Below, piece by piece: positions 20,679 to 52,016 of a stretch of DNA of 55,187 nt; the stretch's first letter is position 1, and each line of letters starts with the position of its first letter. The position numbers were made by a program, and so were the translations under genes. Location: positions 9,688-64,874 of the forward strand of contig PKWJ01000031.1 in assembly GCA_003132025.1 (NCBI GenBank), given 5' to 3'. This DNA is from Gammaproteobacteria bacterium (GTDB lineage Bacteria; Pseudomonadota; Gammaproteobacteria; Steroidobacterales; Steroidobacteraceae). The notes below the pieces were generated by a model. The model was not told the DNA's origin. It searched no databases and saw only the letters and a program-made list of their open reading frames with translations.

Positions 20679-22007
20679 CTAAGCCGGCATCTTGCGCGAT
20701 TTGCCGAGTGTCTCCAGCGTGGTGTCGATCGCTACCTCGAACCCCGCCAGTGTATCGCGCAGGCAGGAGTCATCGTGCGCCGCGGAGATGAACCACGGCT
20801 CGCGCGAATCCGGTTCGCACAGAATACGTTCATCGTGCAGTACCCGGGCGGCGGCATCGTAGAACGTGTAGTCACTGCCCTTCCAGTCGCGGTAGGTGCG
20901 CGGCGGCTCGTGCGCGAAGTACAGCCCTCCCATCGACGGGTGGCCGACGAAGCTGTGCGCCACGCCACGCGCCTTCAGGATCGCACTCATGCCGCTGCGC
21001 AACCGGGTACCGTAGGCGGCGATGCGTTCGAGCGCATCGGTCTCATCCAGGATCTGCAACGTCCTTTCGGCCGCTGCCAGCGACACCGGGTGCGCGGTAT
21101 AGGTGCCGCCGTGCGCGACCCCGCGGCCGATCTTGCGCATGATGTCCTCGCGGCCGGCCAGCACCGAGATCGGATAGCCGTTGGCGATTGCCTTGGCGAA
21201 GGTGCATAGGTCCGCCGGTACGCCGTATAGCTCCTGCACGCCGCCACGGGCGACGCGAAAGCCGCTCTTCACCTCGTCGATGATCAGCAACACGCCGTGG
21301 CGATCGCACAGTTCACGCGCCGCGCGGATGTAGGCCGGGTCGGTCGCAATCCCCAGGCAGTTGCCCATAATGGGCTCGATCAACAGGCAGGCAATCGAGC
21401 CCGCATGGCGCTTGAATACGTCTTCCAGCTGATTGGCATCGTTTGCCTGGACAAAATGCGCGAAATTGCGTGTGCTGAGCGGCACTCCCTCGCTGTACGG
21501 ATAGACCTCTGGTTCCCCGACCTGGGACCACTTGTCCATCGGCGTGTACCACATGGCGGCATCGAACAGCCCGTGATAGCTGCCCTCCAGAATCACGTAG
21601 TCGTCCTTACCGGTAAAGGCGCGCGCCAGGCGCAGCGCCGCCATGACCGCCTCGGTGCCGGAATTGGAAAAGCGCACCAGCTGTGCGGCCGGCACCATTT
21701 TCGCGATGCGCTCCGCCACGCGGTACTCGCATTCGGTCGACAGCGCGAACACACCGCCGACCTGCATGCCTTCACGTGCCGCCTGATCGACCCGCGGATC
21801 GGCGTAGCCCAGGATCGCCGGCCCATAGCCCATGCGATAGTCGACGTAGACGTTGTCGTCCAGGTCGGTGATCCGGGCGCCACGGCCTGATTTTACATAA
21901 ATCGTGCGTTCTTCCCCCCAAAAGCGGAAATTGGAGGCCACACCCAGTGGCATGCGCTGCACGGCGCGACGGAAATGCGCGTGGTTTTTGCTTAGGATTC
22001 GGGGCAT
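20679..22007 (-). CDS. Class III PLP-dependent aminotransferase
   Basis: 442 residues, similar to glutamate-1-semialdehyde aminomutase-type and omega-amino acid transaminases. The PLP lysine is in FAKAIANGYP, the preceding Asp in IIDEVKSGFR, and the phosphate-binding SGTEAVMAALRLAR is clear. First gene of a minus-strand operon (aminotransferase, two flavoproteins, GcvT-like protein, PotA-like ATPase). It is divergent from the Rieske oxygenase across 130 bases, so an amine released by oxidative demethylation could be its substrate; this is inference. Confidence 0.9.
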   Translation of the reverse strand: MPRILSKNHAHFRRAVQRMPLGVASNFRFWGEERTIYVKSGRGARITDLDDNVYVDYRMGYGPAILGYADPRVDQAAREGMQVGGVFALSTECEYRVAERIAKMVPAAQLVRFSNSGTEAVMAALRLARAFTGKDDYVILEGSYHGLFDAAMWYTPMDKWSQVGEPEVYPYSEGVPLSTRNFAHFVQANDANQLEDVFKRHAGSIACLLIEPIMGNCLGIATDPAYIRAARELCDRHGVLLIIDEVKSGFRVARGGVQELYGVPADLCTFAKAIANGYPISVLAGREDIMRKIGRGVAHGGTYTAHPVSLAAAERTLQILDETDALERIAAYGTRLRSGMSAILKARGVAHSFVGHPSMGGLYFAHEPPRTYRDWKGSDYTFYDAAARVLHDERILCEPDSREPWFISAAHDDSCLRDTLAGFEVAIDTTLETLGKSRKMPA

Positions 22008-22068
22008 GGTTGCGCTCCGCTAGAGGTGCCGGTGGGGCACGGTAGCACCAGTCAGGCAACGAGTCTAT

Positions 22069-22109
22069 ATGCTCATATAATTTTTGTGTAGAATTGAATG
22101 CTCATATAA
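22069..22109. promoter_or_regulatory. Twin 12-base direct repeats, candidate TetR operators
   Basis: ATGCTCATATAA occurs at 22069-22080 and again at 22098-22109, 29 bases apart, between the divergent aminotransferase and Rieske genes. The first copy lies in a dyad, TATATG-CT-CATATA (22067-22080). Spacing near three helical turns and AT-rich sequence in a GC-rich genome suit binding by a dimeric regulator, most likely the TetR-Rieske fusion encoded just downstream. Confidence 0.55.
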
Positions 22110-22137: not shown

Positions 22138-23304
22138 ATGAATTCCTCAGCTGCCCCATTGGTCGAGTCGACCCTGGCCCCGCTGCCGCGGGCACTACCG
22201 GCGTGGGCCTACAGCCATCCGGAAATGACGCGCCTGGAATACGAGCGCATCCTCAAGCCGAGCTGGCAGATCGTGTGTCACATCAGCTCCATCCCGAAGC
22301 CGGGCGACTACATGACGCTCGATCTAGGGGCCGACAGCGTGGTGGCCGTGCGCGGCGCCGACGGTGCGATTCAGACGTTTCATAACGTCTGCCGCCATCG
22401 TGGTTCGCGTCTGCTGGAAGGCGGCGGCAATTGCCGCGCCCACATCACCTGCCCCTATCACGGCTGGTCCTACCGGCTGTCGGGCGAACTGGTGGGGGTA
22501 CCCGCACGCGAGACTTTCCCGGGACTCGATCGCGCGCAATACAGCCTGAAGCCGGTGCGCTCGCAGGTCATGATGGGGTTCGTATTCGTCTGCGTGGCCG
22601 GGACCCCGCCGCCGCTGGAGCAGATCTGGGGCGCATTTCTGGCGGAGTTCGCCCCGCATCGCTTCGAGGACATGGTCCCGCTGGGCACGTCCTATGTCGA
22701 GCACTGGGACTGCGACTGGAAAATCGCGATGGACAACTATCTGGAGTCCTACCACGTACCCATCGGTCATCCGGGCTTAAATCGCCTGTTCACCCCGGAC
22801 TATGACGATCAGGTCAACCTGCCGGGCGGCGTGGCGCGCGGCATCAGCTGGATGCGCGAGCGCGAATCCTCCCGCTGGAGTGAGCGCATGTACCAGCGCA
22901 TGGTCGCCGGGGTCAGTCAGGAACTGCCCGAAGCACACCGCAAGCGCTGGAGCTTCTACAGCATGCTGCCGAACCTGGGCATCGATGTGTTTCCGGACCA
23001 GATGGATTTTTTCCAGGTGCTGCCGCGCGGTCCGGGCAAATGCACCATCCGCGGCGCCTCGTTTGCGCTCGCGGATGAGCGGCGCGAGATGCGCATCGTG
23101 CGCTACCTGAGCACCCGCATAAATCGCCTGGTACAGCGCGAGGATGAATTTCTGTGCCGGCGGGTGCAGCTCGGGCTGGGGTCGGGTAGCTATGAACCCG
23201 GTCCGCTGTCGCGCCTGGAGAACTGCATGTACGAGTTTCACGAGCTGCTGCGCGAGCGCATTCCTGAAGTGCGCCAGCCGGGCCCGCCTGCGCGCTTCGC
23301 CTAG
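22138..23304 (+). CDS. Rieske non-heme iron oxygenase, quaternary-amine type
   Basis: Terminal oxygenase alpha subunit, 388 residues. The Rieske cluster ligands are C85, H87, C105 and H108 (CRHRG and CPYHGW). The mononuclear iron site has H206 and H211 in YLESYHVPIGH, with Glu203 where ring-hydroxylating enzymes have the bridging Asp; Glu at this spot is seen in carnitine monooxygenase CntA, glycine-betaine monooxygenase GbcA and choline monooxygenase. Its role is therefore probably N-demethylation or C-N cleavage of a quaternary amine. GGAGGC precedes the ATG at 22138. No reductase partner is in the window. Its stop overlaps that of the convergent TetR-Rieske gene by 3 bases. Confidence 0.9.
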   Translation: MNSSAAPLVESTLAPLPRALPAWAYSHPEMTRLEYERILKPSWQIVCHISSIPKPGDYMTLDLGADSVVAVRGADGAIQTFHNVCRHRGSRLLEGGGNCRAHITCPYHGWSYRLSGELVGVPARETFPGLDRAQYSLKPVRSQVMMGFVFVCVAGTPPPLEQIWGAFLAEFAPHRFEDMVPLGTSYVEHWDCDWKIAMDNYLESYHVPIGHPGLNRLFTPDYDDQVNLPGGVARGISWMRERESSRWSERMYQRMVAGVSQELPEAHRKRWSFYSMLPNLGIDVFPDQMDFFQVLPRGPGKCTIRGASFALADERREMRIVRYLSTRINRLVQREDEFLCRRVQLGLGSGSYEPGPLSRLENCMYEFHELLRERIPEVRQPGPPARFA

Positions 23305-24986
23305 AGCAAGCGTTCCGGCAGCGTCGGGATCGCCGGCAGCAACGCCGTGATCGAGCGACGAAACTGCAGCAGCGGGTCGGGAATCGGGCCGGCGTCCTCG
23401 AACTCCTCGGGGGCACCCGCCAACCCGGTCTGGGTAGACTCAGCCAGGGCAATCTCGCGCTGCAGCCAGGCGTTGATCTGTCGTTGCCAGCCGCCGCCGG
23501 CGTGTACACCGGCGCTGCCGGAAACTGCGCTGCCGCGCTTTGGGCCGCTGTGCCGCCGTGCCGGCACAGCCGCGACGTAGTCGTAGCGCTGCAGGCGGCA
23601 GCGGCCCGCCGCCACCGGAATCACCTGAAGGATCAGTGCCGCGTCGCGCCGCGCCTCGATCAGCTGGTTCGGCGGCAGGAACTGGCGCTGCGCCGCCGGC
23701 GCTTCGAGCCAGCGCTCGACGATCAGCTTCCAGTCCGCGGCCACCTGGATCTGCTGCGCACCGACCGGCGACATGCGGTCGAATACTCCCCACTCGATCT
23801 CGACCTCGGCGGCCACTTCTGGCGCAGCGGCACCGGCCCCGCGCACCACGATCAGGCGCCCCCATTGCGTAAGCCCGAGCGCACTGAGGTCGCCGGGCGT
23901 GTCGCCATCGACCAGTCGTCCATCGAGCCGGTAGGTGAGATTGTGGGACGCGCAGTGGATTGCGCCCTCGAGGTGGCCAGTGCGCGCGATAACCAGGGCG
24001 TGCGGTCGCCGGCGGCAGGCATTGCGAAAGGCGTGCAGGCGGCCGCGCTCGCCGCGCACTACCAGGGCTCGCTCGCCAGCCAGATCCGCACTCAGAAAGT
24101 CGCCTGCGACCGGGACTTCAGCCTCGTGACCGATGATTTGCCAGGCCGGTCGCAGCAGCCGCTCGCGCTCCGCCGCCAGCAACGCGCCGTGGGCGTAGGC
24201 CCAGGCGGGCAGGCGTGCGCCGGCACGCAGCTTCGGTTCGGATGCCGCAGCGAACGTTGTCGGCGGCGACTGGCCCGCATCGCTGGTGTCGCGCTCAGGG
24301 GCCGGCGTCGGTGCCGGCGGCAGCAGCGGCGCCGCGCCCGCGAACTGCCCCGGGAACACCGAGCGCAGGTAGGCCAGCGCACGCGCCCGGGCGGCCACGC
24401 GATCGATGCTGGCCTCACTTTGAAACGCGAAGCCCTGCCACAGAATCTCCAGCACGCCGATCAGTCCCAGCGCTACGCCGTCGGCGTCCAGGTGCCGGGC
24501 TGCGCTCTGTGCGATCATGCGCTCGATCAGTTCGCGCACCAGTGCGGCAAACTCGTCGTCCCTGTTACCGCAGATGTCGTAGTACTCCTGGCGCGAGCTG
24601 GCCTCGCCCCAGAACGAATACCAGACCGATACCTTGCGCGGACTGGCTATGTCCGCATCCAGATACAGGTCCACCAGTAATTCCAGCGCCAGCACCGGCG
24701 ATTGCCGCAGTTGCGACACCGGCAACAGCACCCGCTCCTCGAACTCGGCCGACAGATGCTCGAGCGATGCCACCAGCATTGCCGCCTTGGAATCGAAGTA
24801 AAACCGAACGATTCCGGGCGACAGATCGGCGATCGACACCACTTTTTCCACCGTGGTGCGCGACGGCCCGTAGATATGCAGTGCCGAGATGCAGGCGTCG
24901 ATCAGCCGTTGGCGCTGGCGGCTGCGTGTGGCCCGGCCGGGACCCGCCTCAGCGCCGCTGCCCACCGGTGGTACGCGCGACGCCAC
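23301..24986 (-). CDS. TetR regulator fused to degenerate Rieske oxygenase
   Basis: One uninterrupted 561-residue frame. Residues 22-215 are a TetR/BetI-type regulator: helix-turn-helix near 43-70 (EKVVSIADLSPGIVRFYF) and the W122-x2-F-W-G motif seen in the island's other BetI-like proteins. A Pro/Ala-rich linker (216-250) follows. Residues 258-561 align along their length with the neighbouring Rieske protein (LPAWAYAHG versus LPAWAYSHP; C-terminal QTGLAG region also shared). Cluster ligand His is replaced: C324-R-R326 instead of C-x-H, while C345 and H348 remain. The iron-site histidines are gone (ADWKLIVERWLEAP) and the catalytic domain is shortened. A catalytically dead paralogue used as a sensor domain is the likeliest reading. 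Confidence 0.88.
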   Translation of the reverse strand: MASRVPPVGSGAEAGPGRATRSRQRQRLIDACISALHIYGPSRTTVEKVVSIADLSPGIVRFYFDSKAAMLVASLEHLSAEFEERVLLPVSQLRQSPVLALELLVDLYLDADIASPRKVSVWYSFWGEASSRQEYYDICGNRDDEFAALVRELIERMIAQSAARHLDADGVALGLIGVLEILWQGFAFQSEASIDRVAARARALAYLRSVFPGQFAGAAPLLPPAPTPAPERDTSDAGQSPPTTFAAASEPKLRAGARLPAWAYAHGALLAAERERLLRPAWQIIGHEAEVPVAGDFLSADLAGERALVVRGERGRLHAFRNACRRRPHALVIARTGHLEGAIHCASHNLTYRLDGRLVDGDTPGDLSALGLTQWGRLIVVRGAGAAAPEVAAEVEIEWGVFDRMSPVGAQQIQVAADWKLIVERWLEAPAAQRQFLPPNQLIEARRDAALILQVIPVAAGRCRLQRYDYVAAVPARRHSGPKRGSAVSGSAGVHAGGGWQRQINAWLQREIALAESTQTGLAGAPEEFEDAGPIPDPLLQFRRSITALLPAIPTLPERLL

Positions 24987-25088: not shown

Positions 25089-25979
25089 ATGAAACCTATA
25101 GATCGTCCGGGCCGTTGGCTCATCATCCTGCCGCCGCTGCTGTTCCTGCTGATTTTTTTCCTCATTCCGTTCGCCTTCGCCTTCAAGATCAGCTTCGCCG
25201 ACACCGCGGCGCGCGTACCTCCGTTCACCGATGTACTGACCCGCACCCCAGACCATCACCTGCAATTCAGCGTCAGCCTGGCGAACTATCAGTACCTGTT
25301 TACCGATGACGTTTATGGTGTGGCGTATCTATATTCGCTCAAGACCGCATTCTTTTCGACATTGATCTGCCTGGGGCTGGGCTATCCGATGGCATACGCG
25401 ATCGCCCGGGCGTCCAAGTCGACGCAGAATGTGCTGTTGCTGATCATCATCCTGCCATTCTGGACCTCGTTCCTGCTGCGGGTATATGCCCTGGAGGGCA
25501 TCATCCGCGACAACGGCATACTCAACACCGTGCTGCTGCACCTCGGGCTGATTCACGAGCCGCTCCGAATCATGCGCACGACGCTGGCGGTGTACCTCGG
25601 CATCATCTATTCCTACCTGCCATTCATGGTGCTGCCGCTGTTCGCCACACTGGAGAAACTCGACCGTTCGCTGCTGGAAGCAGCCTCTGACCTGGGCAGT
25701 CCCCCGTGGCGCGTGTTCCTCGACGTCACGCTGCCGCTGTCGATACCGGGCGTGATTGCCGGCTCGATGCTGGTGTTCATACCGGCGGTCGGCGAATTCG
25801 TGATCCCGTCGCTGCTCGGCGGACCCGATAGCCTGATGATCGGCCGCGTGCTGTGGGATGAGTTCTTCGGCAACCACGACTGGCCGGTCGCCTCGGCGGT
25901 GGCCATCGCGTTTCTGTTTCTGCTCGCCGGCCCGATCGCGATCTACCAGTACTACAACGTCAAGCAGCTCGAGGCCTGA
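25089..25979 (+). CDS. PotB-like ABC transporter permease
   Basis: 296 residues with six membrane helices. The cytoplasmic EAA loop reads EAASDLGSPPWRVFLDVTLPL in two adjoining pieces around residues 197-217. PotB/PotH family: import of polyamines or related cationic amines. It is divergent from the TetR-Rieske gene (102-base gap) and 6 bases before the second permease. Partner ATPase and binding protein are encoded elsewhere in the island. Confidence 0.92.
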   Translation: MKPIDRPGRWLIILPPLLFLLIFFLIPFAFAFKISFADTAARVPPFTDVLTRTPDHHLQFSVSLANYQYLFTDDVYGVAYLYSLKTAFFSTLICLGLGYPMAYAIARASKSTQNVLLLIIILPFWTSFLLRVYALEGIIRDNGILNTVLLHLGLIHEPLRIMRTTLAVYLGIIYSYLPFMVLPLFATLEKLDRSLLEAASDLGSPPWRVFLDVTLPLSIPGVIAGSMLVFIPAVGEFVIPSLLGGPDSLMIGRVLWDEFFGNHDWPVASAVAIAFLFLLAGPIAIYQYYNVKQLEA

Positions 25980-25985
25980 ATCGGC

Positions 25986-26816
25986 ATGGAAAGCCGCTAC
26001 TCCCCGACACTACTCACCGTACTGTGCCTCGGCATCACGATACTCTACCTGCCGATCGTGGTGCTGATCGCCTACTCGTTCAATGCCTCCCCACTGGTCA
26101 ACGTCTGGGGTGGATTCTCGACCGCCTGGTATTTCCAGCTGCTGCACAACCGCCAGTTGCTGCAAGCGGCACTGCTGTCGCTGGAAGTCGCGGTCACCGC
26201 TTCCAGTGCCGCGGTACTGCTCGGGACCATGGCGGCGATCGCGCTGGTACGCTTTGCCCGCTTTCGCGGGCGCCTGCTGCTGACCGGCATGGTGAATGCA
26301 CCGCTGGTGATGCCGGAGATCATCACCGGCATCACGCAGCTGCTGCTGTTTGTTTCGATGCTGCAGATGCTCGGCTGGCCGCACCGCGGCTTCACCACCA
26401 TCGTGCTGTCGCACGTGGCGTTCTGTTCGGCCTATGTGACCATCACGGTGCAGTCGCGATTGCAAACCGCCGACCGGTCGCTGGAGGAGGCGGCGATGGA
26501 CCTCGGCTCCGGTCCGGCGCGCGCGTTCCTGGAAATCACGCTGCCGATCCTGGCGCCCGCGATCCTGTCGAGCTGGTTGCTGAGCTTCACGCTGTCGCTC
26601 GACGACCTGGTGATCTCGAGCTTCGTGTCCGGACCGGGCGCCAGCACGCTGCCGATGGTCATCTACTCCAAGGTCAAGCTTGGCGTCAGCCCCGACGTCA
26701 ATGCACTCGCCAGCCTGATCATCTGCGCCGTCGGGGCCTGCGTGATTGCCGCCGGCTACTTCATGCGTCGTGCCGACCAGCGGCGGGCGCTGGAGATGCA
26801 GATGGCGGAGCGCTAA
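25986..26816 (+). CDS. PotC-like ABC transporter permease
   Basis: 276 residues, six membrane helices, EAA motif EEAAMDLGSGPARAFLEITL. Second permease of the PotBC pair, translated right after the first. PotC-type sequence DDLVISSFVSGPG near the last helices is typical. The gene converges on the HD-oxygenase gene with 29 bases between stops. Confidence 0.92.
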   Translation: MESRYSPTLLTVLCLGITILYLPIVVLIAYSFNASPLVNVWGGFSTAWYFQLLHNRQLLQAALLSLEVAVTASSAAVLLGTMAAIALVRFARFRGRLLLTGMVNAPLVMPEIITGITQLLLFVSMLQMLGWPHRGFTTIVLSHVAFCSAYVTITVQSRLQTADRSLEEAAMDLGSGPARAFLEITLPILAPAILSSWLLSFTLSLDDLVISSFVSGPGASTLPMVIYSKVKLGVSPDVNALASLIICAVGACVIAAGYFMRRADQRRALEMQMAER

Positions 26817-26845: not shown

Positions 26846-27439
26846 TCAGGCGATCGGCTCGGCGATGTAACGCGGATCGTGCGCCGGCCGGCCAAGGATG
26901 CTGCGTACCAGCGGCTCGAATGCCTCCAGCGGCTGGCTCGGATAGTCCGGATCGAACGACGCCTGGTCCCAGCGTTCGCAGAACGCCGCGCAGGCGCCAT
27001 ACCACTGATGATCCTTGTAGCGATCGCGGGCATTGCGGTTGCCACCCAGGTGGTGCACGTAATAGTAATTCTGGAACAGGCCGTGCTGCTCGACGATCCA
27101 GGTCACCTCGGCGCGCACGTACGGCCGGATGATGGCTGCGGCAAACTCCGCGTGATTGTACGGCGCCAGCTCGTCGCCGATATCGTGAATCAGCGCCGCG
27201 AGCACCAGCTCATCATCGGCACCATCGCTGCGCGCGCGCGTCGCGACCTGAAGCGAATGTCCAAGCCGGCTCAGTGGGTAACCGGCGAGCGAATGATCAA
27301 GCCGGCGTAGCGCCTCGAGCACCCGATCGGGCAGGCCCAGCGCGTAGTAGCGCTCCGAGCGGTCGAGCAGCAGGTAATCCTTGCGGGTACCGTCCTGCAT
27401 CCTGCGAAAACTCACCATCTCGCCCATGATCTCGCTCAT
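26846..27439 (-). CDS. tmpB: TmpB/PhnZ-like HD-domain diiron oxygenase
   Basis: 197-residue HD-domain protein. A full set of six metal ligands of the mixed-valent diiron oxygenases (MIOX, PhnZ, TmpB) can be assigned: H61, H85, D86, H96, H119 and D158 (LIHDIGDELAPYNH, VEQHG, RWDQ). This argues for an oxygenase rather than a phosphohydrolase. TmpB cleaves the C-P bond of 1-hydroxy-2-(trimethylammonio)ethylphosphonate to give glycine betaine and phosphate. Its start overlaps the stop of a TmpA-like oxygenase gene as ATGA, the arrangement known for tmpAB. The substrate assignment is inference from this coupling. Confidence 0.75.
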   Translation of the reverse strand: MSEIMGEMVSFRRMQDGTRKDYLLLDRSERYYALGLPDRVLEALRRLDHSLAGYPLSRLGHSLQVATRARSDGADDELVLAALIHDIGDELAPYNHAEFAAAIIRPYVRAEVTWIVEQHGLFQNYYYVHHLGGNRNARDRYKDHQWYGACAAFCERWDQASFDPDYPSQPLEAFEPLVRSILGRPAHDPRYIAEPIA

Positions 27440-28584
27440 TGCGGGTTCTCCGTCGCAGTCGCTCGGCGGCGTCGCAGCAGCCGATACAGGCTGCGCGGGC
27501 CGTCGATGTCGATGTAGCAGCCCTGAAGATGACGCAGGCCTTCGGTGGGGTCGAATCCGGTACGTCCGTGCAGCAGCCGCCGGTTATCCATCATCATGAG
27601 CTCGCCGGCGTTGAGCAGGAAGCGAAATTCGAACTCCGGCGAGCGCAGCAGGTGATCAAATGCACGCCGCGCGCGATAGTACGCTTCCAGATCCGCCGGC
27701 GGCTGCAACGGCACGAAATCCAGCCGCGGGCTGAAGTGCACCGCCTGTACGCGGCCGGTGACGTCGAGTTCGATCGGCGCTGCGCTCGCCACCAGATCGG
27801 TGGCGGCATCGCGATAGCGAAATCGCACCGCCGTGCGTGACATCCGATCAAACGCTTCGGGGTCGCGCAGCCGCAGCGCCTCGGCCACCGCAAAGCCGTC
27901 GACCAGAGTCGACAAACCACCGGAGGTCTGGTTCACCAGGCAGTGCAGCAGCTGTACGCCCGGCACCGGCCAACGGTACGGATTGTCGGTGTGCGGGTCG
28001 AGCGCCATCGCGGTGTACGCAAGATCGATGGCCGCGGGTGTGGAACGCACGTCGAACAGCTCGCCAAAATTCGTCTCCCGGGGATAGCCGAATGCGGCGG
28101 CGACCTGCAGTATCTGTCCCGGTTGCGTCGGCACGTCGCTGAAGACCACGAAGCCCAGTTCCAGGAACCGCGCCAGCCACCGCGCGCGCTCGTTATCACT
28201 TGGCTGGCTGTTCCACCGCGCGTGCGGGGCAGGGCGCAGCGTCGCATCCCACAGCCTGGGCGCCGGCAGGTCGTGATCGCCGGCGCGCAGCGCCGCCTCC
28301 GCCAGAATGTCGCACTCCAGGAAATCCGCCTGGTGTCCGTCGCTGAACTGCACGCGAAATTTTCCGGCTTCGGGCTGCGTGACGGCGCTCAGCGCCAGCC
28401 GCGGATCAAGATCCGATGGATCCAGCAGCCGCTGCCCGGTATGCAGGTCGACCGTGCTTGCGTCCTGGCAGCGCTCACGCAGCCAGATCGGGTGGATGGC
28501 ATAGCGTTGCCCGTCGGCATGTTCGATCGTCAGTTCATTGCCGGCGGTGACGCGCAGTCGCGCCGTGGGTGCTGGTGATTGCAT
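27436..28584 (-). CDS. tmpA: TmpA/gamma-butyrobetaine hydroxylase-like 2OG oxygenase
   Basis: 382-residue Fe(II)/2-oxoglutarate dioxygenase of the gamma-butyrobetaine hydroxylase family. The iron triad is H198, D200 (DPHTDNPYR) and H339 (LLHGRTGF). The N-terminal domain normally holds a Cys3-His zinc site; here only C39 of the usual cysteine cluster remains. Close coupling to a TmpB-like HD oxygenase suggests the TmpA reaction (hydroxylation of 2-trimethylaminoethylphosphonate). A true gamma-butyrobetaine hydroxylase making L-carnitine is the alternative, since carnitine genes lie nearby. The ATG at 28584 sits 4 bases after the binding-protein stop; the longer reading to 28710 would lie inside that gene. 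Confidence 0.75.
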   Translation of the reverse strand: MQSPAPTARLRVTAGNELTIEHADGQRYAIHPIWLRERCQDASTVDLHTGQRLLDPSDLDPRLALSAVTQPEAGKFRVQFSDGHQADFLECDILAEAALRAGDHDLPAPRLWDATLRPAPHARWNSQPSDNERARWLARFLELGFVVFSDVPTQPGQILQVAAAFGYPRETNFGELFDVRSTPAAIDLAYTAMALDPHTDNPYRWPVPGVQLLHCLVNQTSGGLSTLVDGFAVAEALRLRDPEAFDRMSRTAVRFRYRDAATDLVASAAPIELDVTGRVQAVHFSPRLDFVPLQPPADLEAYYRARRAFDHLLRSPEFEFRFLLNAGELMMMDNRRLLHGRTGFDPTEGLRHLQGCYIDIDGPRSLYRLLRRRRATATENPQ

Positions 28585-28588
28585 TGGA

Positions 28589-29698
28589 TCAGCGCGCCGT
28601 CTTGATCCGGGTCCAGGTGCGGGTACGGATACGTTCCAGGGCCGGATTGACCTCCGCGGATTCGTATAACCTGGCTGCGACCGCCGGGGTCGGATAGATC
28701 GCCGGATCATTCAGAATCTGCGGATCGACGTAGGGCGTGGACGCCAGATTGTCGTTGCCGTAATGAATGTCGTTGGTAATGTCCGCGATCACTCGGGGTT
28801 CAAGTATGAAATTGAGAAACTTGTGCGCCGCATCCGGATGCGGCGCGTCGACCGGTATCAGCAGCGCATCGAACGATGCGTTGGCGCCTTCCTTGGGCAC
28901 GGTAAACGCCAGGTTGACGATGACCCCGGCGGCCTTGGCACGCGCCCGGGCCGCCGCATAATCCCCGGACCACGACATCGAGATACAGAACTCCTTGTTC
29001 CCCAGGCCATTCATGTACTCGGATGAGTCAAACGCGCGGATGTAGGGACGCACCGCGAGCAGCAGTTTCTCGGCGCGCTTGTAGTCCTCGGGGTTGGTGG
29101 AATTCGGGTCCAGATGCAGATAGTTCAATGCCAGTTGCAGCACATCCTCCGCCTGATCCAGAAACGATACCCCGCAATCGGCAAAGTGCGCGATGACCTG
29201 CGGATTGAAGATCATGTCGAGGCTGTCGAGCGGCGCGTTGGGCATACGGGATTTGATCATGTCGACATTGTAGGCAAAGCCATTGACGTGCCGCAGGTAG
29301 GGCATCGCGTACTGGTTGCCAGGATCGGCGCCGGCCTCAATCGCGAGCACCTGTGGATCCAGATTCTTCCAGTTCGGCAGTTTGCTGCGGTCCAGCTTCT
29401 GGTAGATGCCGGCCTTGATCTGACGGCTGAAGAAATCCGTCGAGGTGCTCACCACGTCGTAGCCGGAGTCGCCCGCCATCATCTTGGCTTCCAGGGTTTC
29501 ATCGGCATCGTAAGTATCGTAGACCACCTTGATGCCGGTGGCGCTTTCAAATTTCGCCAGCGTGTCCTTGCCGATGTAATCGGACCAGTTGTAGATGTTC
29601 ACTACCTTGGCCTCGGCGCCCTGGTGACCCGAACCGCAACCGGTGAGCGCTGCGGCCGCCAGCAGCAGTAGCGTTCGCAGCCCAGCCCGGGCGTACAT
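28589..29698 (-). CDS. PotD-like periplasmic binding lipoprotein
   Basis: 369-residue solute-binding protein of the spermidine/putrescine (PotD/PotF) family. The lipobox is LTGC (about residues 18-21) after a short hydrophobic leader. Family signatures are VVNIYNWSDYIGKDTL and EFCISMSWSGDYAAA. It lies between the aldehyde dehydrogenase gene (3 bases) and the TmpA-like gene (4 bases), implying that this operon imports the compound the TmpAB pair oxidises. The matching permeases converge on the same operon from the other side. Confidence 0.92.
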   Translation of the reverse strand: MYARAGLRTLLLLAAAALTGCGSGHQGAEAKVVNIYNWSDYIGKDTLAKFESATGIKVVYDTYDADETLEAKMMAGDSGYDVVSTSTDFFSRQIKAGIYQKLDRSKLPNWKNLDPQVLAIEAGADPGNQYAMPYLRHVNGFAYNVDMIKSRMPNAPLDSLDMIFNPQVIAHFADCGVSFLDQAEDVLQLALNYLHLDPNSTNPEDYKRAEKLLLAVRPYIRAFDSSEYMNGLGNKEFCISMSWSGDYAAARARAKAAGVIVNLAFTVPKEGANASFDALLIPVDAPHPDAAHKFLNFILEPRVIADITNDIHYGNDNLASTPYVDPQILNDPAIYPTPAVAARLYESAEVNPALERIRTRTWTRIKTAR

Positions 29699-40369: not shown

Positions 40370-41035
40370 CTACGCCGCCGATGATCCGGACGCGGGCGTC
40401 TTATGCGACTTCCTGAGCTTGTCCGGCCCGGCAGCTGCGGCACTGGTGGCCCAGGCACGCAGCAGCTGCAATGGCAGCCGCAGCTGCTCGAGCTGTTTTT
40501 CGGCCGGCCAGTCGCTGCGACTGACCACGGCGCCGGCGGTAAGGCCGTTGATGAAGGTCACCACCGAGCGCAACACCTGATCGCGCGTCGACGGCGCCCA
40601 TTGCGCCCATTCGGGCCAGGCGCGCGCCAGGCACCGCTCAAATAGGCGCATGTACTCGCGATGCACCCAGGCATTGATGCGTTTCAGGCGCTTGTCTGCC
40701 GACACCTGGCCCCAGAATGCGATCCAGAAAGCACATTCGGTGTAGCGCTGCTCATCCACCGGCAAAGCCTCGGTCAGCAGCAGCAGCAAATCCGGCGCCG
40801 TCTGGCCGGCCGGCCGCGTCAGGCGCTCCTCGATACGTCGCAGGATCAGCCGCAGCGCGGCGATGATGATGTCCTGCTTGGTATCGAAGTAATGCGCCAC
40901 CATGCCGGTGGTGTAACCGGCTTCGCGCGCGATGCGCACCACGGTGGCCTGGTCGAAGCCGTACTCCGCCACTACACGGCAGGCGACGAGCGCGATTTCA
41001 TCCCGGCGTTGGTCGTGATCGACGATCTTGGGCAT
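40370..41035 (-). CDS. TetR-family regulator, BetI-like
   Basis: 221 residues. Helix-turn-helix at about 31-50 (TVVRIAREAGYTTGMVAHYF), which matches BetI closely; the W104-x2-F-W-G motif in the effector domain is shared with the two fused TetR proteins of the island. It lies 11 bases downstream of the carnitine dehydrogenase fusion and before the acyl-CoA dehydrogenase, so it likely controls this operon and perhaps the AT-rich sites at 42578 and 31213. The start at 41059 is an alternative. Confidence 0.88.
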   Translation of the reverse strand: MPKIVDHDQRRDEIALVACRVVAEYGFDQATVVRIAREAGYTTGMVAHYFDTKQDIIIAALRLILRRIEERLTRPAGQTAPDLLLLLTEALPVDEQRYTECAFWIAFWGQVSADKRLKRINAWVHREYMRLFERCLARAWPEWAQWAPSTRDQVLRSVVTFINGLTAGAVVSRSDWPAEKQLEQLRLPLQLLRAWATSAAAAGPDKLRKSHKTPASGSSAA

Positions 41036-41046
41036 GGGGCTAAAGC

Positions 41047-42555
41047 TCAACTCTTCCACAGACTGAGGTGGCGGCCGCTGCGCGGCGGCTGGTCGATTCC
41101 GGCATGGGCAATGCGAATCTTCTCAAGCTTAGCGCGCAGCGTCGCGTCCATGGCAGAGGCCTTGCCCGCGGCACTGTTCACGTGCAGATACAGCTGCTCG
41201 CCAGTGGCGACCAGCCGGTCGTCGCGCCGCCGATTCAGGTTATGAAACAGGTGCACGCGTTTGTCGTCCAGGCCGAGAATCTGCGTCGTCACGTACAGCG
41301 GCTCGAGCGCGCTGGCTTCGGAGCGATGCGTGACATGGGTCTCCACCGTGTAGAGCGCGCGCCCGGACGCACGGTAGGCGTCGTCGACCCCCACGGCCCG
41401 CAGCAGCGCGTCGGTGGCATCACCGAATACCTGCAGGTAGCGCGAATCGGTCATGTGGCCGTTGTAGTCCACCCACTCGGGGCGCACGTAGGTCTCGACC
41501 AGCCGCAGCGGTTGGCCGGCGACGACTCCAGCCCCGTCATCCACGGCAGCGCGCGCCGCCGCGCCGTTCTGCTGGTACAGCCGCTCTTCCAGGGCGCGCA
41601 AGGTCGCCCCGGCACCGATATCAAACTGCCGCAGTACCTGCTGGATTGCCACCAGGTAGTCATCGCGCAGCCGCTCCAGCTCGCGGATCGAGCGGCCGCC
41701 GGCCTGTGCCTGCGTGCCCTCGACCATGCGGTCGATCAGCTGCTCGCTCAGCTCGGGCGCCTCGAGCTTGGTCCAGGGCCACTTCAGGCACGGCCCGAAC
41801 TGCTGGAGCATGTGGCGCATGCCGGACTCGCCACCGGCCAGGTGGTAGATCAGGTTGGTCCCCATGGCGGCCCAGCGCAGGCCCGGCCCGTAGACGATCG
41901 AGTCGTCGAGTTCACCGGTGCTGGCCACGCCATCGTTGACCAGGTGCAGGATCTCGCGCCACAGCGCCTCCTGCAGCCGGTCGGTCAGGTGGCCCGGGAC
42001 TTCGCGCCGCACCCGCAGTGGGTGCATGCCGATGTAGCGATAGAAATCTGCGGCCGCCTCGAGCGCCTCGCCCGAGGTGCTGCCCCCGCCCACCAGTTCC
42101 ACCAGCGGCAGCAGATACACCGGATTGAACGGATGCCCCACCAGGAAGCGCTCCGGGGCTTGCATGTCGCGCTGCAGCTCCGACGGCATCAGTCCGGAGG
42201 TGCTCGAGGCGATGATCACGTCCGGCGGCGCGCAGTGGCTGACATCGGCCAGCACGCTCTGCTTGAGCTCGAGCTGCTCGGGGATGTTCTCCTGGATGAA
42301 ATCGACCCGGCGCGCCATCGCTCGCAGGTCGGTGGTGAACGACAGCGTGCCTTTGGGCGGCAGCGGCGCGAACGTCAGGCGCGACAGTGCAGCCTCGGCA
42401 TTTTCCACCGCGCCGCGAATCCAGGCCTGCATTTCCGGCTTTACGTCCGCCGCCACGACGTCGATACCGAAATGCAGTGCGCGCGCCGCCCAGCCGCCGC
42501 CGATCACTCCGGTACCCAGCAATCCCAGCGTCTTCACTGGTCGCATAGCCGCCAT
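41047..42555 (-). CDS. cdhA: L-carnitine 3-dehydrogenase fused to betainyl-CoA thioesterase
   Basis: 502 residues with two enzymes. Residues 1-320: 3-hydroxyacyl-CoA dehydrogenase-like carnitine dehydrogenase, with NAD motif LLGTGVIGGGWAAR and HPFNPVYLLPLVELVGG. Residues 345-485: hotdog thioesterase with WVDYNGHMTDSRYL. The first oxidises L-carnitine to 3-dehydrocarnitine; the second frees glycine betaine from betainyl-CoA, made by the cleavage enzyme at 31250. Such a fusion has been described in alphaproteobacteria. It heads an operon with the BetI-like regulator and acyl-CoA dehydrogenase, divergent from the NCS1 permease. Confidence 0.92.
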   Translation of the reverse strand: MAAMRPVKTLGLLGTGVIGGGWAARALHFGIDVVAADVKPEMQAWIRGAVENAEAALSRLTFAPLPPKGTLSFTTDLRAMARRVDFIQENIPEQLELKQSVLADVSHCAPPDVIIASSTSGLMPSELQRDMQAPERFLVGHPFNPVYLLPLVELVGGGSTSGEALEAAADFYRYIGMHPLRVRREVPGHLTDRLQEALWREILHLVNDGVASTGELDDSIVYGPGLRWAAMGTNLIYHLAGGESGMRHMLQQFGPCLKWPWTKLEAPELSEQLIDRMVEGTQAQAGGRSIRELERLRDDYLVAIQQVLRQFDIGAGATLRALEERLYQQNGAAARAAVDDGAGVVAGQPLRLVETYVRPEWVDYNGHMTDSRYLQVFGDATDALLRAVGVDDAYRASGRALYTVETHVTHRSEASALEPLYVTTQILGLDDKRVHLFHNLNRRRDDRLVATGEQLYLHVNSAAGKASAMDATLRAKLEKIRIAHAGIDQPPRSGRHLSLWKS

Positions 42556-45368: not shown

Positions 45369-48053
45369 ATGAACTCGAAGATCTCATATGCGGTAGCGGT
45401 CATCCTCAGCGGAGCCTCATTGGGCGCCTCGTGGAACGCCAGCGCTGACGAGCCGGCAGCCGACACCACCGCGGCTGGCACCGACATGCTCGCCGAGATC
45501 ACCGTCACCGCGCAGCGCCGCACGCAAAACATGCAGGACGTGCCGATCTCGATGCAGGCGCTGACCGAACAGACGCTGCAGCAGCTGAATATCACGACCT
45601 TTGATGACTACATCAAGGACCTGCCGAACGTCACGGCGGCGAGCAACGGGCCGGGACAGAATGAAGTCTTCATGCGCGGCCTGAGCGCCGGGTCGCAGGC
45701 CAGCCAGGGCAGCGCTTCGACCGGCTTGTGGCCGAACGTTGCCATCTACCTGGACAACCAGTCCGCGCAATTGCCCAATCGCAACCTCGACATCTACGCC
45801 GCCGACCTGAATCGCATCGAGGTGCTGGAGGGGCCGCAGGGAACGCTGTTCGGCGCTGGCGCCGAGGCCGGCGTGATCCGCTACATTACCAACGAACCGA
45901 AGCTCGACGTCACCGAGGGCAGCGTCAAGGGCGGCTACGGCTGGACCGCACACGGCGATCAGAATGCCGACGTGACGGCCGTGATCAACCTGCCACTGAT
46001 CGAGAACACCATGGCAGTGCGCGCGGTGATCTACGACGATCATCGCGGCGGCTACATCGACAACGTGCCGGCCACCTTCACGCGCAGCGCCACCGACATC
46101 GGCATCCACTACGCCAATTATCCGACCGGTTGCGGCGTCAACAGCGTGCCGGCAGGACCGCCGTGTGAGGTACCGCCCGGTAGCCCCAGCCTCAGCAATG
46201 GCGCCGTAGTCGGCAATGCCATCAATCCCGTTGACTACCAGGGCATGCGGGTAGAGGCGCTGTACAAGATCAACGATGACTGGAACGTGCTGATCACGCA
46301 GTCGTTCCAGGACATGGACTCGTCGGGCGTGTTCTACCAGCAGCCCAATGCTTCAGATGGCACGCCGCTACAGCCGCTCCAGGTCACGCTGTTCAACCCC
46401 TCGCACGATGACGATAGATTCGAGAGCACCGCCTGGACAGTGAATGGAAAGTTCTGGGACCTCAAGGCGGTCTATACCGGCGGCTACCTGGTGCGCAAAG
46501 TTGAGCAGACCGGCGACTACACCAACTATGCACGCGGCGTGTATGCCGATTACTACCAGTGCTACGGTCCGGGGACGGGCTATGACACGGCGCTGAAGTC
46601 AACCTGCTTCTCGCCCAGCGCCACCTGGCGTTCGGTCGAACGCAACACCCACCAGCAGCACGAGTTTCGGGTCAGCACGCCCGATGAGTGGCGTCTGCGC
46701 GCGATCGTCGGCGCGTTTTACGAGAACAACACGCTCTTCGACCAGACCGACTGGATGTACAAGACCATTCCCGCGTGTACCTCGAATGCCCCGGCCGGAT
46801 CTCCGGGCAATAGCGGCTGCCTGTCGGACACCGGCACCTTCCCCGGCACCACCGTAGTAAATCCCGGCGTGCAGAGCGACAACAGCTCGTTCTACCAGGA
46901 CACGGTGCGCCAGACCCGGCAGACGGCATTCTTCGCATCGGTCGACTTCGATCTGATTCCGAAGGTACTGACGGCGACCGTCGGTACGCGCCACTTCCTG
47001 TTCGAGAATTTTTCGGCCGGCAGCGTGCTGTCGAGTTTCTACTGCTTCGAGGCGGGCGACCCGGTCGGTGGCTGCCACAATCCGGCGGCCAGCTACAATC
47101 TGAACGCGGCTAATCTGCGCAACTCCGAGTCCGGCACCAAGAGCCGCGGCAACCTGACCTGGCACATCACACCCGATGTCATGGTGTACTACACGTTCTC
47201 GCAGGGCTTTCGACCGGGCGGCTTCAACCAGAACGGTAATTCCCAGCATGCCTACGGTACCGATGGGGTGTTGCAGTACGCGATTCCCGTGTCGTACGCA
47301 TCCGATCGGTTGACCAACAATGAAATCGGCTGGAAAACGGAATTCTTCAATCATCGCCTGCAATGGAACGGCGCCATCTACCAGGAAAACTGGGACAACG
47401 TCCAGATCTCATTCTTCGACCCAACGGTGGTGGGCAACATTTTTTACGACACCAACGGCCAGAACTTCCTGGTCAAGGGTATCGAGACCTCGATCGTGGC
47501 CCGGGTCACCAATGGCCTGACACTGCACGGTGCGGCTTCGTGGAACACCAGCAGGCAGACCAACTCCCCGGCGCTGATCGACAACATCCCCGGCAGCAAT
47601 AACTTCGGCAAGCCGATCACCCAGGCGTGCGGCGCCACTGGCACCGGTTGCACGCCGATCGTCAATCCGTTCGGCCCGATCGGTGCCCCGAGCGCCGACG
47701 CACCGCCGATCCAGTTCAGCCTGCGCGCGCGCTACGATTGGACTGTTGCCGGCTACGCGCCTTTCGCGCAGTTCGGCGCCACGCATCAGGGCATTTCCTA
47801 CACGCAGGCGGGCTCGAATCCGACCATCGCGCAATCCGGCCTCAGCACCTCCAGGCTGCGGTTCGTGAATCCCGCGTACTCCACCTACGATGCGTCGGCG
47901 GGCGTTGCCAAAGATGCCTGGACGCTGACCGTGTATGGCGAGAACCTCGCCAACTCCAACGCCAGCACCTTCATCAGCACCGATCAATTCATCGTCGCAC
48001 AGACGCCACTGCGGCCACGCGTCATTGGCGCGTCGCTCGCGTACAAATTCTAG
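45369..48053 (+). CDS. TonB-dependent outer-membrane receptor
   Basis: 894 residues. Signal peptide (MNSKISYAVAVILSGASLG, then cleavage near WNASA), TonB-box-like EITVTAQRRTQNMQDVPISM, plug signature VEVLEGPQGTLFGAGAEAG, barrel ending VIGASLAYKF with terminal Phe. AAGGGG precedes the ATG at 45369. Second receptor in the island; ligand unknown. The stop overlaps that of the convergent betA by 4 bases. Confidence 0.92.
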   Translation: MNSKISYAVAVILSGASLGASWNASADEPAADTTAAGTDMLAEITVTAQRRTQNMQDVPISMQALTEQTLQQLNITTFDDYIKDLPNVTAASNGPGQNEVFMRGLSAGSQASQGSASTGLWPNVAIYLDNQSAQLPNRNLDIYAADLNRIEVLEGPQGTLFGAGAEAGVIRYITNEPKLDVTEGSVKGGYGWTAHGDQNADVTAVINLPLIENTMAVRAVIYDDHRGGYIDNVPATFTRSATDIGIHYANYPTGCGVNSVPAGPPCEVPPGSPSLSNGAVVGNAINPVDYQGMRVEALYKINDDWNVLITQSFQDMDSSGVFYQQPNASDGTPLQPLQVTLFNPSHDDDRFESTAWTVNGKFWDLKAVYTGGYLVRKVEQTGDYTNYARGVYADYYQCYGPGTGYDTALKSTCFSPSATWRSVERNTHQQHEFRVSTPDEWRLRAIVGAFYENNTLFDQTDWMYKTIPACTSNAPAGSPGNSGCLSDTGTFPGTTVVNPGVQSDNSSFYQDTVRQTRQTAFFASVDFDLIPKVLTATVGTRHFLFENFSAGSVLSSFYCFEAGDPVGGCHNPAASYNLNAANLRNSESGTKSRGNLTWHITPDVMVYYTFSQGFRPGGFNQNGNSQHAYGTDGVLQYAIPVSYASDRLTNNEIGWKTEFFNHRLQWNGAIYQENWDNVQISFFDPTVVGNIFYDTNGQNFLVKGIETSIVARVTNGLTLHGAASWNTSRQTNSPALIDNIPGSNNFGKPITQACGATGTGCTPIVNPFGPIGAPSADAPPIQFSLRARYDWTVAGYAPFAQFGATHQGISYTQAGSNPTIAQSGLSTSRLRFVNPAYSTYDASAGVAKDAWTLTVYGENLANSNASTFISTDQFIVAQTPLRPRVIGASLAYKF

Positions 48054-49708
48054 CGCTGCGCGGTGTGCCAGCCGGGCGCAACGTAGAGCGGCACATCAGC
48101 TGCCGGCAGCAGCGGCTTGCCGAGGATGTGGTCGGCGGCCTTCTCCGCCAGCATGATGGTCGGCGCATTCAGATTGCCGTTGGTGATCGTCGGCATGATC
48201 GACGAGTCCACCACGCGCAGCGCCTCGACGCCGATGACGCGGGTTTGTGGATCCACCACCGCCATCGGATCATCGACCGCCCCCATGCGACACGAGCACG
48301 ACGGATGATAGGCGCTCTCCACGCGCTGGCGGATGAAGTCGTCGATCTGCGCGTCGGTTTGCACTGCCGCGCCCGGCTGAATCTCCCGTCCCCGATAGGG
48401 GGCGAATGCACTCTGCGCGAAGATCTCGCGCGTCAGGCGTACGCAGGCGCGCATCTGCACCCAGTCGGCCGGCTCCGACATGTAGTTAAAGAAAACCTTG
48501 GGTTTATCGAACGCATTGGCGGACGCCAGGCGCACCCAGCCGCGGCTGCCAGAGCGCATCGGCCCCACGTGCGCCTGGTAGCCGTGCTCGCGCGCCAGCG
48601 ATAGGCCGTCGTAGCTGACCGCCATCGGCAGGAAGTGATACTGGATGTCTGGATAGCGCTCGCCGGCGCGGCTGCGGATGAAGCCGCCGGTTTCGAAATG
48701 ATTGGTCGCGCCCAGTCCGTCCTTGCGCAGCATCCAGCGCAGGCCGATCAGTGCCTTGCGGTACGGCGTCATCTGCGAATAAAGCGTGATCGGCTGCGTG
48801 CAGGCGACCTGAAAGTAGAATTCCAGGTGGTCCTGCAGGTTCTCCCCCACGCCGGGCAACTCCTGCACCACGCCGATGCCGTGGCCGGACAGTTCCGGCC
48901 CCGGTCCGATGCCCGACAATTTGAGCAGCTGTGGCGAGTTCAACGGGCCGCCACTGACAATCACCTCGCGCCGGGCCTGCGCCACATGATCGGCGCCGGC
49001 GCGGCGGTAGCGCACACCGGTGGCGCGCCGGCCATCGAACACGATGCGCGTGGCCAGCGCCCGGGTGCGCACCGCGAGATTGTCGCGGCTCATCGCCGGC
49101 CGCAGGTAGGCGTTGGCGGCGCTGCAGCGGCGCCCGCCGCCCACCGTCATGTCCAGGCGTCCGAATCCTTCCTGCTGATAGCCATTGATGTCGTCGGTCA
49201 GCGGATAGCCCGCCTGGCGTGCGGCGGAAAGCCACGCCTGGTGCAGCGGATTGGTCAGCAGCCCATAGCGCGTGTGCAGCTTGCCGACCGCACCACGATA
49301 CTCATCGCCGCCATCCGCACGCCGCTCCGAGCGCCGGAAGTACGGCAGCAGTTGCCGATAGCCCCATCCGGAGGCCCCCTGGGATTCCCAATGCTCGTAG
49401 TCGAGCGCATTGCCGCGCACGTACACCAGTCCATTGATCGACGATGAGCCGCCGAGCACCTTGCCGCGCGGCGTGTGCATGCGCCGCCCACCCAGATGCG
49501 GCTCGGCTTCGGTCTGATAGCGCCAGTCGTATTTCGGCATGTTCATCGGCATCGACAGCGCCGACGGCATCTGTATGAAGATCGAGCGATCCGAGCCGCC
49601 ATACTCAAGCAGCAGTACCTTGTGCCGGCCGTCTTCGCTCAGGCGATCGGCCAGCACGCAGCCGGCCGATCCGGCGCCCACGATCACGTAGTCGAACGTC
49701 TCATCCAC
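48050..49708 (-). CDS. betA: Choline dehydrogenase (GMC oxidoreductase)
   Basis: 552-residue FAD enzyme. N-terminal YVIVGAGSAGCVLADRLSED, GMC signatures GKVLGGSSSINGLVYVRG and SGGPLNSPQLLKLSGIG, and C-terminal active site around SYHPSCSCRMG-like AYHPSCSCRMG, with its conserved His. It oxidises choline to betaine aldehyde at the membrane. It starts 15 bases behind the BetI-BetB fusion, reproducing the betIBA gene order. Confidence 0.92.
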   Translation of the reverse strand: MDETFDYVIVGAGSAGCVLADRLSEDGRHKVLLLEYGGSDRSIFIQMPSALSMPMNMPKYDWRYQTEAEPHLGGRRMHTPRGKVLGGSSSINGLVYVRGNALDYEHWESQGASGWGYRQLLPYFRRSERRADGGDEYRGAVGKLHTRYGLLTNPLHQAWLSAARQAGYPLTDDINGYQQEGFGRLDMTVGGGRRCSAANAYLRPAMSRDNLAVRTRALATRIVFDGRRATGVRYRRAGADHVAQARREVIVSGGPLNSPQLLKLSGIGPGPELSGHGIGVVQELPGVGENLQDHLEFYFQVACTQPITLYSQMTPYRKALIGLRWMLRKDGLGATNHFETGGFIRSRAGERYPDIQYHFLPMAVSYDGLSLAREHGYQAHVGPMRSGSRGWVRLASANAFDKPKVFFNYMSEPADWVQMRACVRLTREIFAQSAFAPYRGREIQPGAAVQTDAQIDDFIRQRVESAYHPSCSCRMGAVDDPMAVVDPQTRVIGVEALRVVDSSIMPTITNGNLNAPTIMLAEKAADHILGKPLLPAADVPLYVAPGWHTAQR

Positions 49709-51805: not shown

Positions 51806-52016
51806 GCTCCGGGGAGCCACAGTGCAGGGCCGAATGTAATCCGGGCGGTCACAGCGGTCCCGGGCCGATACCCCATGATTCTTCAGGCACTTGGTGGAGC
51901 TCGGGTAGTCTTGACACGGGCCGCATTAAACCGCTATTCAAAGCGTGGCAGCGATCATCCGGTCGAGGCCCGCCGAAGGTCAAGTCCTCATTGCAACTAG
52001 ATCGAGCGGAGCGCGT

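Follow-up and report, generated by a model that had tools for sequence, protein, structure and literature searches.

The 55,187-nucleotide stretch of contig PKWJ01000031.1 from a gammaproteobacterium of the family Steroidobacteraceae (hereafter the window) carries on its reverse strand, at 23301 to 24986, a gene in which a TetR-type repressor is joined in one open frame to a Rieske oxygenase that has lost its catalytic iron site. This TetR-pseudo-Rieske fusion is real, conserved and unusual. Its relatives keep an altered set of Rieske-type ligand residues, trace back to a TetR fused to a complete oxygenase, and lie beside a conserved palindrome between divergent amine-catabolism genes. On balance, we give an even chance to the reading that the protein is a TetR repressor in which a retired Rieske oxygenase serves as the sensor of an amine and/or of the state of a metal site.

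The fusion gene and its domains

The frame begins with GTG, ends with TAG and runs through 561 codons without interruption. An earlier reading made from the letters of the DNA (the sequence-only reading) had described a TetR regulator and a Rieske-like domain in a single frame, and this description is borne out by the 561-residue frame and by Pfam matches to both parts. The gene is divided as follows.

23301..24986 (-), TetR-pseudo-Rieske oxygenase fusion, 561 aa; single open frame, Pfam, AlphaFold2 (AF2) model
24354..24923 (-), TetR/BetI-like repressor part, approximately residues 22-211; TetR_C_6 match, helical in the AF2 model
24222..24353 (-), Pro/Ala-rich linker, approximately residues 212-255; largely of low model confidence
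23886..24221 (-), Rieske-type domain, approximately residues 256-367; PF00355 match, Foldseek match to quaternary-ammonium Rieske oxygenases
23304..23885 (-), catalytic-like domain, shortened and lacking both iron His and the Asp; alignment, AF2 model

Pfam recognizes TetR_C_6 at residues 100-211 (46.3 bits, cut-off 27) and Rieske at residues 282-365 (43.4 bits, cut-off 20.3), with the TetR_N helix-turn-helix (HTH) model (PF00440) below its cut-off (20.5 vs 24 bits, E 4e-4) and Ring_hydroxyl_A present as a trace only (12.4 vs a cut-off of 24.9 bits). The regulator had been called BetI-type, which holds for the Pfam C-terminal domain but not for NCBIfam BetI, where the fusion scores 66.1 bits against a cut-off of 201.3 and is therefore not a BetI equivalog. 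BetI and BetI-type TetR proteins (TIGR03384, PF13977) share with the fusion the TetR_C_6 domain and an amine-catabolism context, but their models span 189-197 positions and include no enzyme domain.

The AF2 model of the fusion, built on a 47-sequence alignment, has a mean predicted local distance difference test score (pLDDT) of 87.3. The N-terminal half is helical and the C-terminal half is mostly confident and strand-rich, and in the linker the pLDDT falls below 50 over residues 218-226 and 237-250 of the protein, numbered 199-207 and 218-231 in the model. The best Foldseek matches of the C-terminal half are stachydrine demethylase and CntA (template modelling score, TM, by target ~0.6), and the match to 4quq (E 7.7e-15, TM by target 0.62) covers a Rieske plus catalytic fold. 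A complete fusion from another locus (L020) gives a model with a mean pLDDT of 80.0 and TM of 0.77-0.80 to CntA in Foldseek, and we read the modelled C-terminal half of the window protein as the same fold as the L020/CntA type, shortened. Counted from an LPAW motif common to both, the fusion has 303 residues to its end vs 369 in the neighbouring enzyme; the shortened catalytic domain that had been noticed is thus confirmed, at 66 residues fewer.

Distribution of the family

One scan of genome contigs yielded 52 loci, and a search of 60 relatives added further ones. Among 72 loci, with four duplicates set aside, 48 distinct frames combine TetR with Rieske, 46 of them pseudo and two (L019 and L020) with a complete active site. 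Of the 46 distinct pseudo fusions none has an internal stop, and three (L009, L033 and L059) are cut by contig ends. The sequence-only reading had named, as evidence that would speak against a fusion, a stop or frameshift between the domains or relatives with two separate genes and intact ligands. Neither is found as a rule, the exceptions to an open fused frame being L018, split by an assembly gap with X in the frame, and L089, split by a stop.

An order-wide profile search gave full-length matches in 47 of 396 genomes, among the matches listed. By score, 41 of these are pseudo-type, all in the family of the window, and six are active-type, including G374, G389 and G303; three of the 41 (G147, G342 and G026) have one TAG each inside the aligned stretch. 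A search of the class (369 genomes) added three further fusions of the active kind (G737, G517 and G610), with C-X-H and both iron His present in all, and one match confined to the TetR part (G661). In 398 genomes of the phylum (E 1e-60), nothing was returned beyond the window's own genome. Organism names at the loci are Steroidobacteraceae, Gammaproteobacteria or Proteobacteria metagenome-assembled genomes (MAGs), with one 'Elstera' MAG. The active fusions that were read (L019, L020, L138, L139, L140 and L146) have C-X-H/C-X2-H and both iron His intact, with Glu at the Asp position of the iron site in L140. Judged from these residues, the active TetR-Rieske fusions are possible bifunctional enzyme-regulators.

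An invariant C/H/C/H set in place of the Rieske motif

The Rieske [2Fe-2S] motif is given as C-X-H-X(15-47)-C-X2-H (PMC11138216). The window protein does not conform to it, as the first loop reads C324-R325-R326 (C-X-R) instead of C-X-H, with C345 and H348 kept. An alternative set, C-X4-H-X15-C-X2-H, is found in the same region and consists of the following residues.

24015..24017 (-), Cys324, canonical first cluster ligand; invariant, 45 of 45 rows
24009..24011 (-), Arg326, at the canonical His ligand position; variable column
24000..24002 (-), His329 (C+5), candidate replacement ligand; invariant, 45 of 45 rows, 0 changes
23952..23954 (-), Cys345, canonical ligand; invariant, 45 of 45 rows
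23943..23945 (-), His348, canonical ligand; invariant, 45 of 45 rows

Across the 46 pseudo members, the columns of C324, H329 and C345 hold C, H and C in 45, the column of H348 holds H in 45, and the canonical His position is His in six. Column statistics were taken from a set of 45 rows, from which L044 was dropped and contig-end rows are absent, and to which L084, L093 and L102 were added. In this set nine of 300 columns are invariant, four of which are C324, H329, C345 and H348. Conservation reaches 95% or more in 18 of the 300, and the hypergeometric probability that four chosen columns would all belong to these 18 is ~9e-6. Position 326 is R in 15 rows, Q in eight, H in six, V in six, E in four, A in three, and N, K and I in one each, with 13 Fitch changes on a FastTree tree of the 45 rows. 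Stand-alone enzymes differ at C+5, which is Ala, Thr or Ser in 53 of 53 parsed enzymes with the canonical His (out of 61 enzyme rows, the rest being unparsed or, as L018, split fusions). In a wider set of 83 enzyme-labelled rows, C+5 is Ala, Thr or Ser in 73, Gly, Met or Asn in four, unparsed in five and His in one, and this sole His belongs to the split fusion L018.

From these alignments, C-X-H...C-X2-H appears to have been replaced by C-X4-H...C-X2-H in the pseudo family. One of the four cluster ligands had been reported as replaced, and Arg326 does stand in place of His; the site is not simply broken, however, as the C/H/C/H set is invariant in the 45 rows. Given that H329 is invariant in the family, the apparent replacement may instead be a ligand swap, and we infer that the site could bind a [2Fe-2S] cluster, or any metal.

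Loss of the iron site and a candidate amine pocket

In the alignment, both mononuclear-iron His are absent from the window fusion and the Asp position is Leu, so the protein has no 2-His-1-carboxylate mononuclear iron site. The loss of both His had been recognized in the window, and it extends to 45 of the 45 pseudo rows that reach the region (L033 ends earlier). In CntA, Tyr203 is reported to contact the quaternary ammonium and Glu205 to bridge subunits (PMC7948474). Matching of CntA positions by phmmer and MAFFT alignment, not by superposition, identifies two residues of interest.

23709..23711 (-), Trp426, at the CntA Tyr203 position; Trp in 37 of 45 rows, CntA alignment
23703..23705 (-), Glu428, at the CntA bridging Glu205 position; E in 30 and D in 3 of 45 rows

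The bridging-position acid is therefore kept in 33 of 45 rows and lost in 12. Glu424 was also considered as the bridging acid and was dropped, because the CntA alignment puts Glu205 at Glu428. Group V Rieske oxygenases (CntA, stachydrine demethylase and GbcA) share with the window protein the fold of its C-terminal half, the bridging acid and an aromatic residue at the 203 position; unlike them, it has no iron triad, is shortened, has a C-X-R loop and is fused to a repressor. Reuse of the substrate pocket for sensing is plausible on this comparison.

Descent, loss of the domain and selection

A tree was built from 61 chosen Rieske parts, 27 of them from fusions of either kind (active or dead) and 34 from stand-alone enzymes, the window's partner enzyme included; a 98/95 branch divides the two sets. 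Within this tree the 22 pseudo members group together with 100/100 support, next to the active fusions, and a wider quick tree agrees except for L018 and L089, which are labelled enzymes because their frames are split. Since the tree separates fusions from stand-alone enzymes, the neighbouring enzyme is not the parent. The idea that the pseudo-domain is a copy of that enzyme is ruled out, and descent from the neighbouring active enzyme, as had been suggested, has to be given up. The tree argues that the pseudo-domain arose instead from a fusion of TetR with a complete Rieske oxygenase. With this change of ancestry and the possible ligand swap, the sequence-only reading is correct in outline.

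In the TetR tree, 15 unfused rows appear at several places inside the fused group, with seven changes, at least four of them forced by starred branches. Lone TetRs with at most 16 residues past the match are found at L055, L056, L058, L060, L061 and L063-L065, TetR orthologues with tails of 57-103 residues at L017, L057, L066, L067 and L069, and two rows are unfused by breakage (L018 at an assembly gap, L071 at a contig end). This scattered placement of the unfused TetRs among the fused ones means that trimming or loss of the domain has happened repeatedly. The tails of L017 and L057 resemble remnants of the start of a Rieske domain.

The ratio of nonsynonymous to synonymous substitution rates (dN/dS) of the Rieske part is 0.13-0.47 and below 1 in all 18 chosen pairs, one of which is the active pair L019/L020, which rules out a simple pseudogene. 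For the TetR part the ratio is 0.08-0.27 in 17 computable pairs, and for the partner enzymes 0.07-0.37 in 13 pairs, with dS near or past saturation in a few pairs. These values point to purifying selection on the domain where it is kept, as part of a functioning protein, and to selection weaker than that on its neighbours.

Gene neighbourhood and a candidate operator

The fusion gene is convergent with that of its partner enzyme, the two stop codons overlapping by 4 bp. The surrounding genes and candidate operators are as follows.

22138..23304 (+), partner gene, intact Rieske oxygenase (C-X-H, C-X2-H, H-X4-H, Asp); Pfam, alignment
20679..22007 (-), divergent class-III aminotransferase, proposed target; Pfam, synteny
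25089..26816 (+), PotB/PotC-type ATP-binding cassette (ABC) permeases, flanking the regulator on its other side; named from sequences
22066..22079 (.), palindrome TATATGCTCATATA, proposed operator 1; motif search, locus conservation
22095..22108 (.), TGAATGCTCATATA, proposed operator 2, two mismatches; motif search, locus conservation

A PotB homologue lies beside the regulator in 36 of the 37 fused loci of at least 6 kb; L059 has a different gene order, with PotB absent from its 7.4 kb. On the other side of the regulator, a stand-alone Rieske enzyme is found in 33 of the 37, some with an aldehyde-dehydrogenase-like gene between, and the four loci without one (L036, L039, L047 and L050) stop at contig ends. 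Wherever the locus DNA extends so far, a class-III aminotransferase gene lies divergently next to the Rieske enzyme.

Promoter regions between these divergent genes were extracted from 41 loci, three of which were dropped. The palindrome TATATGNNCATATA is present at up to 3 mismatches in 38 of the 38 remaining, is exact in 18, and is accompanied by a second site at up to 3 mismatches in 25, compared with 5.8, 0.0 and 0.7, respectively, in dinucleotide shuffles. The site at 22066-22079 is the sole exact copy in the window's 4.2-Mb genome. Across the genome, matches with up to 2 mismatches do not exceed the control (21 vs 28 places), and at up to 3 mismatches the window holds five against 3.8 expected. 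Inexact matches being near the control level, the evidential weight lies with the exact site and with conservation across loci alone. No palindrome at up to 3 mismatches lies between the fusion gene and PotB.

The palindrome is kept at the lone-TetR loci too, which ties it to the TetR half. At six active-fusion loci, the 350 bp upstream of the fusion lack it, and five scattered 3-mismatch matches occur elsewhere in these loci, in L141, L145 and L146. On this sequence evidence, the candidate operator looks specific to the pseudo and lone group. The sequence-only reading had proposed control of the divergent aminotransferase and Rieske operons, and the conserved palindrome together with the synteny supports such control as probable, with the fusion protein as the putative ligand of the palindrome.

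Genes around the active fusions were compared with those of the window. Relatives of the HD protein, GcvT and a flavin adenine dinucleotide (FAD) oxidase lie near the fusion at L141, relatives of PotB, PotC, ABC and binding-protein genes at L145, and relatives of GcvT and a dehydrogenase at L146, while the 9 kb around the fusion of L142 hold no relative of the other window genes among those compared. At L143 and L144 a second Rieske oxygenase gene directly adjoins the active fusion, an arrangement that could allow the fused copy to lose catalysis.

A proposed mechanism and its rivals

A course of events that fits these findings would begin with a bifunctional enzyme-regulator, in which TetR was joined to a Rieske oxygenase that was complete and probably working. 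A separate Rieske enzyme would then have taken over the chemistry, and the fused copy would have lost its mononuclear iron and become a sensor module. In the present protein, the TetR half would bind the palindromes in the aminotransferase/Rieske intergenic region and keep both operons off. The sensor module would retain both an altered Rieske-type metal site, formed by Cys324, His329, Cys345 and His348, and the aromatic position that contacts the quaternary ammonium in CntA. Binding of the pathway amine and/or a change in the redox state or occupancy of the metal site would alter the shape of the TetR dimer and release it from DNA. Two candidate signals come into question: the amine substrate, which the pocket would bind, and the C/H/C/H site, whose state could follow electron delivery by the reductase or the supply of metal. 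The operons would thereby respond both to substrate and to electron supply. A fuller version, a class of one-component regulators in which TetR is combined with a non-canonical C-X4-H/C-X2-H Rieske-type centre, derived from a bifunctional TetR-Rieske oxygenase, and reads amine and electron supply so as to report productive turnover by the partner oxygenase, is put forward tentatively and with some doubt.

Several observations weigh against these proposals. CntA holds His at C+5 beside an intact canonical His in the alignment, and both His are present in five of the six active fusions (L019, L020, L138, L139 and L146), the sixth, L140, having Ser at C+5. His329 may therefore serve another role, as presumably it does in CntA, although we read the same residues as the mark of an ancestor with both His, of which the pseudo family kept the outer one. 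Two of the 46 rows depart from the ligand set: in L044 the first loop is missing and Cys345 is replaced by Tyr, and in L059 Asp stands at the His348 position. In addition, the lone and truncated orthologues occupy the same locus and keep the same palindrome, so that the domain is dispensable, and by dN/dS the Rieske part is less constrained than the TetR part in all 17 computable pairs and less than the partner enzyme in 10 of 12 shared pairs. The laxer constraint relative to the TetR part, with the repeated losses and truncations (seven changes in the TetR tree, at least four of them forced), is what would be expected if the domain were a decaying leftover of the bifunctional ancestor and the TetR part regulated alone. 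The 46 distinct members without an internal stop (three cut by contig ends), the dN/dS of 0.13-0.47 and the nine invariant columns that include the C/H/C/H set all argue otherwise, and we regard a relict as improbable.

It is somewhat easier to believe, though still unlikely, that the pocket alone senses, as in the sequence-only reading, with the metal site gone and the residual catalytic domain binding an amine substrate or product and driving the TetR part. The absence of the iron His in all 45 pseudo rows that reach the region, the Trp that 37 of 45 rows carry where CntA has Y203, the nearest folds being quaternary-ammonium oxygenases and the amine-catabolism neighbourhood all agree with this, but it leaves unexplained why C324, H329, C345 and H348 are invariant against a variable catalytic half. 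Another explanation starts from the structure of CntA, a head-to-tail trimer in which the Rieske site faces the catalytic iron across subunits (PMC7948474). The pseudo-subunit might enter the alpha3 trimer of the partner (or a trimer of its own), so that free enzyme or its occupancy titrates the repressor. The invariant His348, the bridging-position acid that 33 of 45 rows keep and the stand-alone Rieske enzyme near 33 of 37 fused loci, with the other four ending at contig ends, favour such an arrangement; the symmetry mismatch between a TetR dimer and an alpha3 trimer and the loss of the bridging acid in 12 of 45 rows count against it, and we give it only a slender chance. Finally, the window comes from a draft genome of 61 contigs, and the split frame of L018 contains X, which raises the question of an assembly artefact or a frameshift joining two genes. 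The same open fusion recurs in dozens of separate genomes, which refutes this explanation and leaves it a negligible probability.

Other genes in the window

The window contains a second TetR-enzyme fusion at 49724-51820 (-), whose parts are a BetI-type TetR and a betaine aldehyde dehydrogenase, the latter scoring 775.7 bits with NCBIfam PRK13252 (cut-off 593). The fusion is followed by a BetA-like oxidoreductase, named from sequence, at 48050-49708. Among the matches listed, this fusion is also full length in G008, and the other 28 of 30 genomes match in the dehydrogenase part only. At 26846-28710 (-), the gene of an HD-domain protein overlaps one that resembles gamma-butyrobetaine hydroxylase genes and for which NCBIfam gives TmpA as the best match (365.9 bits, cut-off 400); the two look like a pair of the TmpA/TmpB type. 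A carnitine 3-dehydrogenase with a C-terminal extension is encoded at 41047-42555 (-) (PRK07531, 590.7 bits, cut-off 592), adjoined by a lone BetI-type TetR at 40370-41059.

Relation to known regulators and significance

MocR/GabR regulators, as described, resemble the window fusion in combining a DNA-binding domain with a reused enzyme fold. They consist of a winged HTH (wHTH) and an aminotransferase-like domain with pyridoxal phosphate (PLP), however, while the fusion has another HTH class, another enzyme fold and no PLP; its domains are TetR and Rieske, not the GntR wHTH and PLP aminotransferase fold by which a MocR-like protein is defined. The fold of RsrR and other Rrf2 Fe-S regulators is unrelated to that of the window protein. 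RsrR is described as using a [2Fe-2S] cluster with a His ligand as a redox switch for DNA binding (PMC11138216), and the proposal shares with these regulators a His-ligated Fe-S centre, although the cluster in the window protein is only putative. In the tetralin system, the reduced Rieske ferredoxin ThnA3 is reported to block gratuitous induction of the dioxygenase operon, so that, as in the proposal, a Rieske-type redox state informs transcription of a ring-oxygenase operon (PMC3771892). ThnA3 and ThnY (a Rieske ferredoxin and a ferredoxin-reductase-like regulator) are, however, separate proteins that act on the LysR-type activator ThnR. No description of a TetR-Rieske regulator architecture was found among the top-ranked results from open-licence PubMed Central (PMC) literature, in keeping with the sequence-only reading, to which no regulator of such a design was known. 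In a review of Rieske oxygenases (PMC12445004), the word 'transcription' is absent from the main text, and the portions available mention no TetR fusion.

If the metal site is true, it would be a Rieske-type centre with re-registered ligands. To our knowledge, it would also be the first such Rieske-type module inside a DNA-binding protein. Existing genomes give a graded series, from enzyme-regulator fusion to dead-enzyme sensor to loss of the sensor, and this series makes it testable how enzymes become sensors.

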